Positions 39,085 to 43,968 of a stretch of DNA of 64,000 nucleotides are shown one piece after another. Source of the DNA: Amaricoccus sp. (GTDB lineage: Bacteria; Pseudomonadota; Alphaproteobacteria; Rhodobacterales; Rhodobacteraceae); NCBI RefSeq assembly GCF_017993425.1, contig NZ_JAGOMQ010000005.1:1-64000 (forward strand), written 5' to 3'. The position numbers and the translations under genes were made by a program. How positions within the stretch are numbered: the first letter of the stretch is position 1; each line of letters opens with the position of its first letter. The notes under the pieces were generated by a model. It was not told the DNA's origin. It made no database searches and was given only the letters and a program-made list of their open reading frames with translations.

Positions 39085-39400
39085 CCGCCATAGACCGAAC
39101 GATATGACGCCGATAGCCGGCCGACCGAAGCGGGCCTGCCCGCGAGGCCCGGCGCGACAAGCGAAAGCATGGCTTTCGCCGCGCCGACGGCTGGAGCGCG
39201 GTTGCGCGCGGAAGCCGTGAGGGGTGAAGATTTCCCCGTCGCGCGCAATCCGGCCGTGAGCGCCCCGGCGAGCGCGGAATCGCGCTCGCCCCCCGAGGGG
39301 CGATCGCGGACGGATTTGCCACGGGTCAAATCCGTCTGGCGTCACCGTCGCGACCCATTCCTCCCGGTCCGTGGCTTCACCCGGGATGTGGAAATGCCGC
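39085..39400 (-). repeat. Hairpin-rich dispersed element, copy C
   Basis: Read on the minus strand, this copy runs from GCATTTCCACATCCCGGGTG through GACGGATTTGACCCGTGGCA, the GC hairpin, GAAATCTTCACCCCTCACGG and CCCGCTTCGGTCGG to GGTCTATGGCGG. It is almost identical to copy E (43573-43887) over its whole length. It lacks the upstream 37-bp motif and instead follows the terminator of the VWA gene. The rest of the 38922-39453 gap shows no gene. Confidence 0.8.
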
Positions 39401-39408
39401 AGGTCCCC

Positions 39409-39453: not shown

Positions 39454-42400
39454 TCAGCGCCGGATCGGGATGACCAGCGCCTCCTTCGGGCGGCCGAACT
39501 GGGCGATCCGGACCACCGCCGTCTCGCGCAGCTTCAGGCTGAGCGGCGAGACCTCCACGTCGATCCGGTAGGTCCCCGGGTCGCGCGCGTCCGCGATGCC
39601 GATCAGCCGCGCCCCGCCGCTCGTGGTGATCAGGAACCGGTCCGCCAGCCCCGGCCCGACCGGCCCGCCGTTCGCGTCGCGCGGCGTGAAGTAGACCTCC
39701 GCCCGCGTCCGGCTCGGCCGCTCCACCGTCACGTCGCTGCCGCGCGGGTCGGCCTTCACGTCGACCGGCGCCTTGTGCCGCGCCTCGCGCGTCACGCAGA
39801 CCCCGCCGCGGCACAGCTCGAAGATCGCGTGGAACTCGTACTCCCCGTCGACCTTCGCCACGTCCGCCGGCAGCGCCGCCTCCCAGTAATGGTCGCCCGC
39901 CACCCCGTCGCCATGCGTGCCGTCGTCGAAGAGCTCGAACTCCAGCGTCTCCGCCCCGATCACCTCGCCCGTCTGCTTCGGATCGACCGCCAGCAGCGCC
40001 GCCTCCCGCGGCCCCACCACGTCGCCCTCGATCACCTTGCGCTCCGCCTGCCCGGCCCCCTTCACCGCCAAGGCGCCGAGCCCGTTCAGCGGCCGGGTCA
40101 CCAGCACCTTCGCCTTGATCGAATCGAACCCCTGCGGCGGCCACGATGTCTCCGGGATCTGGAACGTCGGATGCAGCTCCTCGCCGGTGTAGTAGGTGCT
40201 CCGCCACGGATGCGGCAGCACCCGCGCCGGCGCCTCGGTCAGGATGTTGATGAAGAGCTCCTGCCGCGGCGGCGTCGCCGTCGCCGCCTGCACGATCGCC
40301 GACGACCCGGCCGAGTTCTTCGCCGCCTCGCTCGCCCGCGGCTCCGCCGGCGCCAGCCCGAAGCTGAAATGCCCGTGCTTCATGTAGGGCGCGAGCTTCT
40401 GGTCCTGCTCCAGCAGAACCCCGTCGGCGGCGATCAGGTCCCAGTCGTACTCCCCCGTCGGCTTCGCGCCGACGCAGCCCCAGATCTTCGCCGCCGTCTC
40501 GGTGGCGCGGCTGTCGCTGACGATCGCCGGCGGCCCGGCGGGGTCGCACAGGATCCGCGCCAGCGGCTCGTCATAGGGCTGGACCTCCTGCGCCACCTTA
40601 GAGGCGTAGACGATCAGGTCGAACCCGCCCCGCTTCAGGAGCGCCGTGAACTCGTGCGCGTCGCGGATGCGGCTCACGTTGGTCACCGTCCCGACCGGCA
40701 CCTCGTAGAACAGCGCCTGCGCATAGATCGAGTTGTGGTCCTGGAAGCTCATCGCCGTCGTCATCGGCATCTCGTCCTCGTAGTAGAGGACGTTGGCGCA
40801 GCCGGCCGGGCAGAGCGTGCGGATCTGCCGGCGGATCAGCTCGATCCCGGCGTCCTCGTCGACGAAGCTGTCGCCGGTGAAGCCGTTGGCGAAGGAGCGC
40901 GGCCCCCGCACCGCCTGCGCCTTCCACACCCCGTCGCCCTCGCCCGCGAGCGGCAGCGGGAAGCGCACCACGTGCCAGAGCGGGTTCATCGCGCTCTCGA
41001 CCGTCGGGTCGCTCAGATCCACCACCTTGCCCGAGGGCGCGGTGACCTGAAGCCGCAGCTCCCCCGGCGGGACCGCCTGGCTCCACGAGCCGACGAAGAC
41101 CAGCTCGCGGTCGCCGAGCACGGACTGGCTGACCGGGGCCGAGGCCGCGTCGGCCGGCTCCATCGCCACGATCGGATCCATGCCGACGAACGTGTCGAAG
41201 ATGTCGGCGAAGCAGTCGACGAAGAACTTGCGCAGCTCCAGGTCGCCCGGGCCGCTGACATAGATGCCGCCCTGCAGCTCGGCGAGGTCGCGGAGCTTCG
41301 GCCCGTCGAGGCTGCCGGCCGTGCCGAGGCCGACCGCGCAGACATGGGCGTCGTCGAGCGAGCCCTGCACGGCGGCGATGGTCGGCGCGGTGTTCTCGAT
41401 CCCGTCGGTGAGCAGCAGGATCGCCGGCCGCGCGCTGGCGGCGAGCGTGGTCATCGCCGCCTGCAGGCCGGCCCCGATGCTGGTCGTGCCGGAGGCGACG
41501 ATCGGCGTCAGCGCCGCCGCCATCGCCGCCGGCGCCGCGCCCGGCCCCGTCAGCCCGAGCTCGACCGGGCTCGCCGCCGCCGAGGAGAACGACACCAGCC
41601 CGACCCGGCTGCCGCCGCCGTTCTCGAGCAGGTCGGCGAACAGGTTCGCCGCGTTCTTGGCCGCGACGAGCCGCGTGCCGCCGCCGGCCGTCGGCAGGGT
41701 CATGCTGCCGGAGCGGTCGAAGACGATCATCACGTCCGCCGGCTGCAACCGCCGCCAGTTGTCCTGCACGTCGTTGTAGAGGTTGTGATAGCGGTAGAAG
41801 ATCGGATCGCGCGGCGCGAAGGCGTTGCAGCGGATGTCCGGCAGGCCGGTCGTGCCGTCGCCCGACACGCACTCGCCGAAGCCCCCCGCCGCGGTGCTGG
41901 CGTAGCCGATCCGGGTGTGCTGGTTGTTGTGATAGCCCACCACCGCGTCGCCGATCGCCGCCTCCGAGGCGAAGGTGTCGAGCGTGCCGCCGGCCGCCGG
42001 CTCGCGGAAGGCGTTCGGCAGCGTCTGGCAGTTCGCCGTGCCGCCCCCCGGGTTCACCCCGTTGCAGGGCGTGTTGGCCGGCCGGCCGTTATGCGTCGGC
42101 CCGATGATCGCCCCCGGGCCGGGATTGAAGGTCTGGATGTTCGGATAGCCCATGGCGGCCGAGAACCGCTCGTAGCCGCGCAGGAACTGGCGATGGAAGC
42201 CGAGGAAGCGCGCGCCCCAGTTCGGCCCGGTGTTGTCGGGGTTGGTGCAATGCCAGTTCAGGTGGAAATGCAGCACGTTCTGCGGCACGGGCGCCACGCC
42301 CGTGCAGGCCCAGGGCGTCGGGAAGAACCCGTCGATACTGGCGATCGGCTGGTTCATCCAGCTGATGTCGGGCTCGTTCTCCGGGTCGAACTGCGCCGAG

Positions 42401-42498
42401 GCCGGCGTGGCGGAGAGGAGCGCCGCGAGCGCCGCGGCGGCTACCCCGAGCCGCGCGAGGACGTGGCGGTTCCGTGGCGGCATGGTCCGTTGCGGCAT
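39454..42498 (-). CDS. Secreted tyrosinase-like copper domain fused to VWA domain
   Basis: The 1014-residue protein has a signal peptide (cut near ATPASA|QF). Residues ~70-250 look like a type-3 copper (tyrosinase) domain: H77/H79 and H83 in VLHFHLNWHC, H102 in FLGFHRQFLRGYE, H190 and H194 in GYHNNQHTRIGY, and H238 in APRDPIFYRYHNLYND. The last recalls the tyrosinase DPxFxxHH...D signature. A von Willebrand A domain follows directly, with MIDAS DRSGS at 261-265 and LLLTDGIEN. The remaining ~500 residues are beta-rich with several Cys pairs and resemble no family I know. GAGGGGG supports the start at 42498. The VWA call is firm; the copper domain is inferred from motif spacing. Confidence 0.8.
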   Translation of the reverse strand: MPQRTMPPRNRHVLARLGVAAAALAALLSATPASAQFDPENEPDISWMNQPIASIDGFFPTPWACTGVAPVPQNVLHFHLNWHCTNPDNTGPNWGARFLGFHRQFLRGYERFSAAMGYPNIQTFNPGPGAIIGPTHNGRPANTPCNGVNPGGGTANCQTLPNAFREPAAGGTLDTFASEAAIGDAVVGYHNNQHTRIGYASTAAGGFGECVSGDGTTGLPDIRCNAFAPRDPIFYRYHNLYNDVQDNWRRLQPADVMIVFDRSGSMTLPTAGGGTRLVAAKNAANLFADLLENGGGSRVGLVSFSSAAASPVELGLTGPGAAPAAMAAALTPIVASGTTSIGAGLQAAMTTLAASARPAILLLTDGIENTAPTIAAVQGSLDDAHVCAVGLGTAGSLDGPKLRDLAELQGGIYVSGPGDLELRKFFVDCFADIFDTFVGMDPIVAMEPADAASAPVSQSVLGDRELVFVGSWSQAVPPGELRLQVTAPSGKVVDLSDPTVESAMNPLWHVVRFPLPLAGEGDGVWKAQAVRGPRSFANGFTGDSFVDEDAGIELIRRQIRTLCPAGCANVLYYEDEMPMTTAMSFQDHNSIYAQALFYEVPVGTVTNVSRIRDAHEFTALLKRGGFDLIVYASKVAQEVQPYDEPLARILCDPAGPPAIVSDSRATETAAKIWGCVGAKPTGEYDWDLIAADGVLLEQDQKLAPYMKHGHFSFGLAPAEPRASEAAKNSAGSSAIVQAATATPPRQELFINILTEAPARVLPHPWRSTYYTGEELHPTFQIPETSWPPQGFDSIKAKVLVTRPLNGLGALAVKGAGQAERKVIEGDVVGPREAALLAVDPKQTGEVIGAETLEFELFDDGTHGDGVAGDHYWEAALPADVAKVDGEYEFHAIFELCRGGVCVTREARHKAPVDVKADPRGSDVTVERPSRTRAEVYFTPRDANGGPVGPGLADRFLITTSGGARLIGIADARDPGTYRIDVEVSPLSLKLRETAVVRIAQFGRPKEALVIPIRR

Positions 42499-43317: not shown

Positions 43318-43380
43318 TCCGGTCCACCCGCCAACGGCGCACGACGCCCCCTGGCCCGACCCGGGCGCCCCTCGAGCGAG

Positions 43381-43547
43381 CGGGCCCTGCCCGCGCGCCC
43401 GCGGCGCGACAAGCGGCAGCACCGCTTTCGCCGCGCCGACGGCCGGAGCGCGGCGGCGCGCAGGCCGTCAGGGGTGAAGATTTCTCCGGGAGCGCGCCAT
43501 CCGTGAGCGCCCCGGCGAGCGCGGCGACGCGCCCGCCCCCGCAGGGC
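43381..43547 (-). repeat. Hairpin-rich dispersed element, copy D (partial)
   Basis: A diverged partial copy, in the same orientation as copy E, lies immediately beside it. Shared blocks are GCGGCGAAAGC...GCTTGTCGCGC, AGGGGTGAAGATTT (plus-strand reading) and GAGCGCCCCGGCGAGCGCGG. It lacks the opening GACGGATTTG hairpin, which may have been cut off at the junction with copy E near 43548-43572. Confidence 0.65.
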
Positions 43548-43572
43548 TAGCGAATTCACACTTCTCCTCCAG

Positions 43573-43887
43573 CCGCCATGGACCGAACGATATGAAGCCG
43601 ATAGCCGGCCGACCGAAGCGGGCTCCGCCCGCGAGGCCACGGCGCGACAAGCGAAAGCATGGCTTTCGCCGCGCCGACGGCTGGAGCGCGTTGGCGCGGA
43701 GGCCGTGAGGGGTGAAGATTTCCCCGTCGCGCGCAATCCGTCCGTGAGCGCCCCGGCGAGCGCGGAATCGCGCTCGCCCCCCGAGGGGCGATCGCGGACG
43801 GATTTGCCACGGGTCAAATCCGTCTGGCGTCACCGTCGCGGCCCATTCCTCCCGATCCGTGGCTTCAGCCGGGATGTGTGAATGCCG
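43573..43887 (-). repeat. Hairpin-rich dispersed element, copy E
   Basis: It is nearly identical to copy C along its full length. It has the GACGGATTTG / CAAATCCGTC-type hairpin, the central GC stem, GAAATCTTCACCCCTCACGG and the GGTCCATGGCGG end. On the minus strand it follows a short variant (43900-43950 again carries GGATTTGACCCGCGGCAAAT) and the 37-bp motif at 43969-44006, so the order motif-then-element is the same as at 20543-20892. The 695-bp gap contains only repeats. Confidence 0.8.
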
Positions 43888-43968
43888 TAGCCCGCAGGGG
43901 CGATCATGGGCGGATTTGCCGCGGGTCAAATCCGTCCGATATCGTTAGGCTCACATTAACCCTCACGC

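Follow-up and report, generated by a model that had tools for sequence, protein, structure and literature searches.

Tyrosinases oxidise surfaces and proteins, as in melanin, insect cuticle and mussel glue, and von Willebrand A (VWA) domains grip proteins. A gene in the 64,000-nucleotide stretch of Amaricoccus sp. DNA analysed here (contig NZ_JAGOMQ010000005.1; the window) encodes a tyrosinase-like domain and a VWA domain in one chain, and this tyrosinase-VWA protein (the window protein) is the subject of the present report. A 2024 review (PMC11608171) writes the CuA motif of type-3 copper proteins as H-Xn-H-X8-H and the CuB motif as H-X3-H-Xn-H, and places the second CuA histidine (HisA2) on a loop and the other ligand histidines on helices; insect phenoloxidases and bacterial PvdP are described there as having two CuB-type sites. 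The other system used for comparison was CLCA1, whose layout is metalloprotease-Cys-VWA-beta-rich-FnIII (fibronectin type III) and which is reported to cleave the mucin MUC2 (PMC6851300).

The tyrosinase homology of the N-terminal domain (N-domain) of the window protein is taken as established, though remote; it was accepted on the Pfam score of the isolated domain and on our own profiles, which scored far above shuffled sequences. Our favoured explanation, held tentatively and a little short of even confidence, is that the protein is an exported type-3 copper phenol/protein oxidase tethered by its VWA domain, an oxidative counterpart of CLCA1. It draws on the domain order, the tyrosinase homology, four histidines in motif context, a complete metal-ion-dependent adhesion site (MIDAS) and related VWA modules that carry other enzyme heads. 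The copper site is unusual and may not work as a dicopper centre, and the activity is a prediction. The gene and its parts are as follows (GC, guanine plus cytosine; GC3, GC at third codon positions).

39454..42498, minus strand: coding sequence of the tyrosinase-VWA protein, 1014 residues, intact frame, GC3 0.97
42394..42498, minus strand: signal-peptide-like N-terminus, residues 1-35, read from the sequence (basic start, hydrophobic run, ends ASA)
41749..42393, minus strand: tyrosinase-like domain, residues 36-250 (approximate); PF00264 26.3 bits (residues 36-258), own profile 23.4 bits
42163..42270, minus strand: CuA region, residues 77-112, with H77, H79, H83, C84, N93 and H102, from alignments and survey
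41785..41937, minus strand: CuB region, residues 188-238, with H190-x3-H194, H238 in DPIFYRYH, and Y237
41164..41736, minus strand: VWA domain, residues about 255-445; Pfam VWA_2 and VWA above cut-offs, MIDAS D261/S263/S265, T339, D365
39457..41163, minus strand: tail, residues 446-1014, without Pfam match; its first approximately 80 residues lie inside the stretch aligning with the Microvirga protein described below
39892..39936, minus strand: choice-of-anchor-X-like motif, residues 855-869, 24.3 bits, just below the cut-off of 25

The frame is real and intact. It starts with the ATG at 42498, preceded directly by a AGAGGGGG run, and its stop ends at 39454. A longer, TTG-initiated frame extends back to 42603, and the ATG at 42498 begins the signal-peptide-like stretch that ends in ASA at residue 35. 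The codon-position GC of the frame (0.68/0.51/0.97) resembled that of four identified neighbour genes, and the values for a long antisense frame were shifted (0.94/0.53/0.69); the minus-strand frame was therefore taken as the coding one. The window protein is probably exported by the Sec route, and inspection of its C-terminus by eye revealed no membrane anchor.

Pfam Tyrosinase (PF00264) scored 20.1 bits on the whole window protein, below the cut-off of 22.6, and residues 36-258 alone exceeded that cut-off (E 1.2e-5, in two stretches). In the genome search, in which the domain was scored with its frame neighbours, the value was 26.9 bits, and Tyrosinase was the sole Pfam match of the head at E up to 5. 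With our own profile of 26 tyrosinase domains, from which it had been excluded, the window protein scored 23.4 bits (E 8.2e-6), whereas none of 2000 shuffles went above 6.5; the corresponding figures for a narrower, 15-domain profile were 17.0 bits and 5.6. Among 476 stop-to-stop frames of at least 60 residues, the window protein was the only one with a CuA-type run, F-L-x-F-H-R-x2-L-x3-E, or a CuB-type run, D-P-x-F-Y-x2-H, and it has both. At E up to 1, no other match to the Tyrosinase family was obtained in the window's genome, and the family was matched at E of 0.01 or better in 10 of 81 genomes, including the window's own and three others of its genus. When the N-domain was compared pairwise with twelve tyrosinase-like proteins (300 shuffles each), two beat all shuffles and ten did not. 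The best match of the twelve was the head of a Microvirga tyrosinase-VWA protein, with a score of 68 against 66 for its best shuffle; a tyrosinase from a viral contig scored 62 (best shuffle 55).

The VWA domain was assigned by Pfam VWA_2 (53.3 bits, residues 256-366) and VWA (39.7 bits), both above cut-off. Its MIDAS is complete, consisting of DRSGS from residue 261 (D261-x-S263-x-S265), T339 and D365, according to the residue pattern that we take to define such sites. An earlier note on this DNA had proposed a secreted protein in which a tyrosinase-like domain is fused to a VWA domain that has a complete MIDAS and begins about ten residues later. The fusion and the MIDAS were confirmed, the profile searches that the note had named as a check came out in favour of tyrosinase, and the proposed secretion agrees with the signal-peptide-like N-terminus. 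No Pfam match was found for the tail (residues 446-1014).

Eight histidines lie between residues 36 and 260 (H77, H79, H83, H102, H136, H190, H194 and H238), and four of the six usual copper ligands stand in motif context: H102, H190, H194 and H238. The CuB motif is present as H190-x3-H194-x43-H238, with H238 inside DPIFYRYH. The third CuA histidine (HisA3) is H102 in FLGFHRQFLRGYE, i.e., F-L-x-F-H-R with the following E. Thus, the CuB spacing and the CuB-signature-like element claimed by the earlier note stood, as did H102; its grouping of H77/H79, H83 and H102 did not follow canonical CuA spacing, and it did not mention Y237, which replaces a conserved extra histidine. H83 lies 19 residues before H102, and H79-x3-H83 has the spacing of a CuB-type, helix-type pair. 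In two alignments with the viral-contig class, H79 paired with the first histidine of an HxxHCT motif, taken as HisA1; other sets of alignment rows placed the H79 stretch elsewhere. C84 aligned with the cysteine of the viral-contig HCT class, with no HisA2 adjoining it in the window protein. Only a short stretch separates the two copper motifs, and no LPYWDW element occurs in it. Compared with PF00264 tyrosinases, the window protein shares HisA3 and the CuB motifs and differs in its Asn at the usual HisA2, its Tyr at the seventh histidine, its H-x3-H before HisA3 and the missing LPYWDW. The CuA site thus seems to be either remodelled, with H83 completing it, or crippled.

Several observations count against a working oxidase. 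The CuA motif is interrupted, since the residue nine before H102 is N93, and the seventh, non-ligand histidine beside HisB3, near-invariant in two alignments, is Y237, although at least one other tyrosinase-like protein (locus L040) also lacks it. According to PMC11608171, the six copper histidines are perfectly conserved among type-3 copper proteins. Searches with phmmer against the PDB returned no match for the window protein, and Foldseek with both of the low-confidence models described below found no PDB match and no tyrosinase. When 84,980 species' genomes were scanned with the single N-domain sequence and again with a three-row profile, 8 and 177 pattern stretches came up and no relative was confirmed, and the only match of the N-domain among 398 genomes of the phylum was the window's own. 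Neither a copper chaperone nor an anchor was identified among the ten neighbour frames scanned.

The main rival, which is quite possible if somewhat doubtful, is a copper-poor pseudo-tyrosinase. Having lost HisA2, it would bind the CuB copper at most, and it would not be an oxidase but the head of a VWA adhesin with a structural or metal-binding role. N93 occupies a position at which 31 of 45 distinct CuA stretches carry His, C84 would have no neighbouring HisA2 to bond with, and the short, LPYWDW-free stretch between the motifs fits the same picture. According to PMC4364613, aurone synthase with HisA2 changed to Ala retained one copper and no activity, and each change of a CuA histidine to Ala left one copper and at most 0.6% of the activity. 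The same paper reports that fungal tyrosinase with Asn in place of ligands or of the seventh histidine, where the window protein has Y237, was inactive with one copper. However, the window protein retains H102 with its following Arg and Glu as well as the whole set of CuB ligands, and H83 is available four residues past H79. Moreover, a study of human tyrosinase (PMC7144311) reports that CuA mutants hydroxylate tyrosine at about half the normal level and oxidise dopa as before.

A survey of CuA stretches softened the argument from N93. In 45 distinct stretches, restricted to those passing a two-motif filter and drawn from related and redundant sources, a histidine nine residues before HisA3 was present in 31 and absent in 14, the window protein included. 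Several of the 13 exceptions among the 44 other stretches have a candidate histidine further upstream, namely the CTH class, a CPH stretch and two CWHH proteins; in the CWHH proteins the distance to HisA3 is 17 and 18 residues. N93 alone as proof of a dead CuA site was therefore dropped in part, and H83 was kept as a possible ligand because other tyrosinase-like proteins lack His at the HisA2 place.

Within the favoured explanation, a rebuilt CuA site is one specific version, and an unlikely one on its own: the loop HisA2 would have been lost to N93 and replaced by the helical H83, giving a second CuB-type H-x3-H site in a domain of the ordinary tyrosinase family joined to a VWA whose branch is not the one that holds the Microvirga and Haloarcula fusions described below. 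The two CuB-type sites of insect phenoloxidases and PvdP would offer a likeness for such an arrangement, and the domain of the window protein matches the ordinary tyrosinase family. The structure prediction suggested as a check in the earlier note, which was to look for the four-helix type-3 copper bundle, gave helices over several of the histidine stretches, in models of low confidence. The first AlphaFold model (23 viral-contig tyrosinase rows; mean predicted local distance difference test, pLDDT, 45.4; predicted template modelling score, pTM, 0.36) had helices around H102 and H238 and at 189-200 over H190/H194. The second, from a cleaner alignment of 12 such rows (mean pLDDT 44.3, pTM 0.44, likewise of low confidence), had helices at 75-83, 94-115 and 232-251, i.e., around H77-H83, H102 and H238.

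An ordinary six-ligand site with a longer loop between HisA2 and HisA3, in which H83 would be HisA2 on that loop and H77 or H79 would be HisA1, we regard as improbable. The exceptions in the survey speak for it, in particular the CTH, CPH and CWHH stretches with their upstream candidate histidines, given that H83 at 19 residues before HisA3 lies close to the 17 and 18 of the CWHH proteins. However, N93 aligned with HisA2 of the two nearest relatives, the weak second model had residues 75-83 as a helix rather than a loop, and the CWHH proteins were no closer to the window protein than shuffles in pairwise scores (z 1.1 and 2.0), which did not support membership of the window protein in the CWHH class. 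That the fold is unrelated and resembles tyrosinase merely through a pair of short, chance-like motifs is very improbable: it would accord with the low model confidence, the lack of structural and PDB matches and the hhalign probabilities from the single N-domain sequence, only 10% and 17%, which we count against homology, but two stretches in the right order exceeded the Pfam cut-off and the profile scores were well above those of 2000 shuffles.

The favoured reading of a tethered copper oxidase gains context from proteins of similar architecture. The search of 72,556 plasmid records with the window protein gave two matches, both beginning at or near the VWA domain, in Microvirga and Caballeronia proteins; the Microvirga protein in turn retrieved a Haloarcula tyrosinase-VWA protein and the Caballeronia protein. 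Microvirga ossetica WP_099514959.1 (870 residues, plasmid NZ_CP016619.1, annotated as tyrosinase family protein) has a tyrosinase head followed by VWA, as in the window protein, and the VWA and following region are 28.6% identical over a 294-column alignment; it differs in that its HisA2 position is occupied by His, additional sequence separates the head from the VWA, and the tail is different. The archaeal Haloarcula sp. JP-L23 protein QIO24726.1 (958 residues, plasmid CP050015.1, annotated as VWA domain-containing protein) also has a tyrosinase head (Pfam 147.5 bits) before VWA, and differs likewise in its His at the HisA2 place, intervening stretch and tail. The tyrosinase-VWA architecture is therefore rare, not unique, and the earlier note, which knew of no described family with it, was not borne out as far as the records are concerned; in the literature searched (titles and abstract starts, with incomplete coverage) no description of a prokaryotic tyrosinase-VWA fusion was found, and 'von Willebrand' is absent from the main text, the part consulted, of a survey of type-3 copper proteins (PMC3658974). 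The combination thus already exists unremarked in public records, and the copper site is the most interesting part.

The plan of an enzyme head followed by VWA recurs with other heads. The Caballeronia protein (L007:3567-6458) carries an M14 carboxypeptidase head, and its middle stretch, VWA and tail resemble the Microvirga query (30.2% identity, 69% of the query). A protein from the window's family (L046:2251-5958, genome G774) combines a subtilase, VWA and choice-of-anchor-X; its VWA is 30.5% identical to that of the window protein over 236 columns and its choice-of-anchor-X motif scored 51.3 bits versus 24.3, whereas its head is an S8 protease. A further protein, from a genome of the class (L002:304-3627), has VWA with a CXXCH-bearing head that lacks a Pfam match.

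Genome searches, whose sets overlap in part, gave a consistent picture. The window protein matched in 4 of 61 genomes (itself included, the others by the VWA region only) and in 22 of 394 family genomes, one match being the gene itself and the remaining 21 falling in the VWA region; four of these 21 were read, one being the protein with the subtilase head and choice-of-anchor-X motif. The Microvirga protein matched in 8 of 337 class genomes, which besides the window's own comprised six with a tyrosinase match and one with a VWA match, and the Haloarcula protein in 7 of 398 phylum genomes, all by tyrosinase. No further tyrosinase-VWA fusion was seen from the listed match ranges, not every match having been read through. 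The window protein gave no pattern match in viral contigs, and the Microvirga protein no match in phages.

In a VWA tree of 12 rows with long branches, from which three further loci without a usable segment were left out, the window and subtilase proteins fell outside a five-row group, named after the tree was seen, of Microvirga, Haloarcula, Caballeronia, CXXCH-head and immunoglobulin (Ig)-head proteins (support 95/96). The approximately unbiased (AU) test rejected a single clade of the window, Microvirga and Haloarcula VWA domains (p 0.00024), and the VWA module does not appear to share its descent with those of the two plasmid fusions. Since the tree separates the three fusions, yet the Microvirga head is the best pairwise match of the N-domain, tyrosinase seems either to have joined VWA modules more than once or to have been exchanged as a head.

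Other tyrosinase genes were noted during these searches. Small frames of 84, 66 and 93 residues lie directly upstream of the plasmid tyrosinase genes of Microvirga (L006:6694-6948), Haloarcula (L024:3041-3241) and Methylobacter (L052:2218-2499); ten columns are invariant in an alignment of the three, none of which reached a Pfam cut-off, and they are possibly a caddie-like helper. The Methylobacter plasmid tyrosinase (L052:2501-4312) ends in an array of near-identical repeats matching Fungal_lectin, i.e., a tyrosinase joined to a binding module. Three scans of IMG/VR contigs gave 17, 35 and 16 loci with tyrosinase-family genes (L053-L069, L070-L104 and L105-L120), many of these loci coming from the same contigs, and several of the IMG/VR tyrosinases start with a twin-arginine-like SRRxFL or TRRxFL stretch. 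In the window's family, a tyrosinase-like frame of 162 residues (L017:1339-1827) has HFLVWHHD in place of the usual WHR.

Six of the ten neighbour frames matched known families (Ysc84, ribulose-phosphate epimerase, 3-hydroxyisobutyrate-dehydrogenase type, penicillin amidase, glutathione S-transferase and aconitase), and no match was obtained for the other four; the gene was not assigned to an operon. Dispersed-repeat blocks at 39085-39402 and 43379-43936 flank the tyrosinase-VWA gene together with the adjoining Ysc84-type gene. A 197-nucleotide part of the repeat is 96% identical between the two flanking copies. At least 47 matches to it occur across the window's genome, of which 40 are at least 147 nucleotides long with at least 86% identity (40 of 358 first-look candidates were scored).

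Under the favoured explanation, the signal-peptide-like start would direct the protein to Sec export, and the N-domain would act as a type-3 copper oxidase converting phenols or protein tyrosine side chains to quinones; H79 and H83 would complete CuA, H83 standing in for the loop histidine that is missing. The VWA domain, through metal-dependent binding, and the tail would hold the enzyme on a partner protein or surface, and oxidation and cross-linking would take place where it is bound. A tyrosinase and a VWA in one chain would amount to an enzyme for targeted cross-linking or surface modification, and would offer a ready scaffold for directing the oxidation of proteins. The CuA anomaly offers a direct test of whether H-x3-H can complete a type-3 site in a tyrosinase-family domain; a rebuilt site, if real, would make the protein an oxidative surface-modifying counterpart of the CLCA and ADAM proteins.

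The comparison with CLCA concerns the plan of the protein. The NCBIfam CLCA model (hCaCC) scored 41.6 bits on the window protein, over the VWA part only, against a cut-off of 900.85, which places it outside the family; weak VWA-region matches, likewise far below cut-off, occurred in four fusion proteins scanned. No N-terminal zinc metalloprotease of the CLCA type was found in the head by Pfam at E up to 5, and the zinc metalloprotease head of the animal CLCA1 marks the difference between the two. The likeness lies in an enzyme head, then a MIDAS-bearing VWA, then further domains, in a protein that is secreted in the case of CLCA1 and predicted to be so in the case of the window protein. The related VWA modules with tyrosinase, subtilase, carboxypeptidase and CXXCH-bearing heads suggest a prokaryotic enzyme-VWA set parallel to animal CLCA, for which CLCA1 may serve as the nearest working analogue, by likeness of plan and not by membership.

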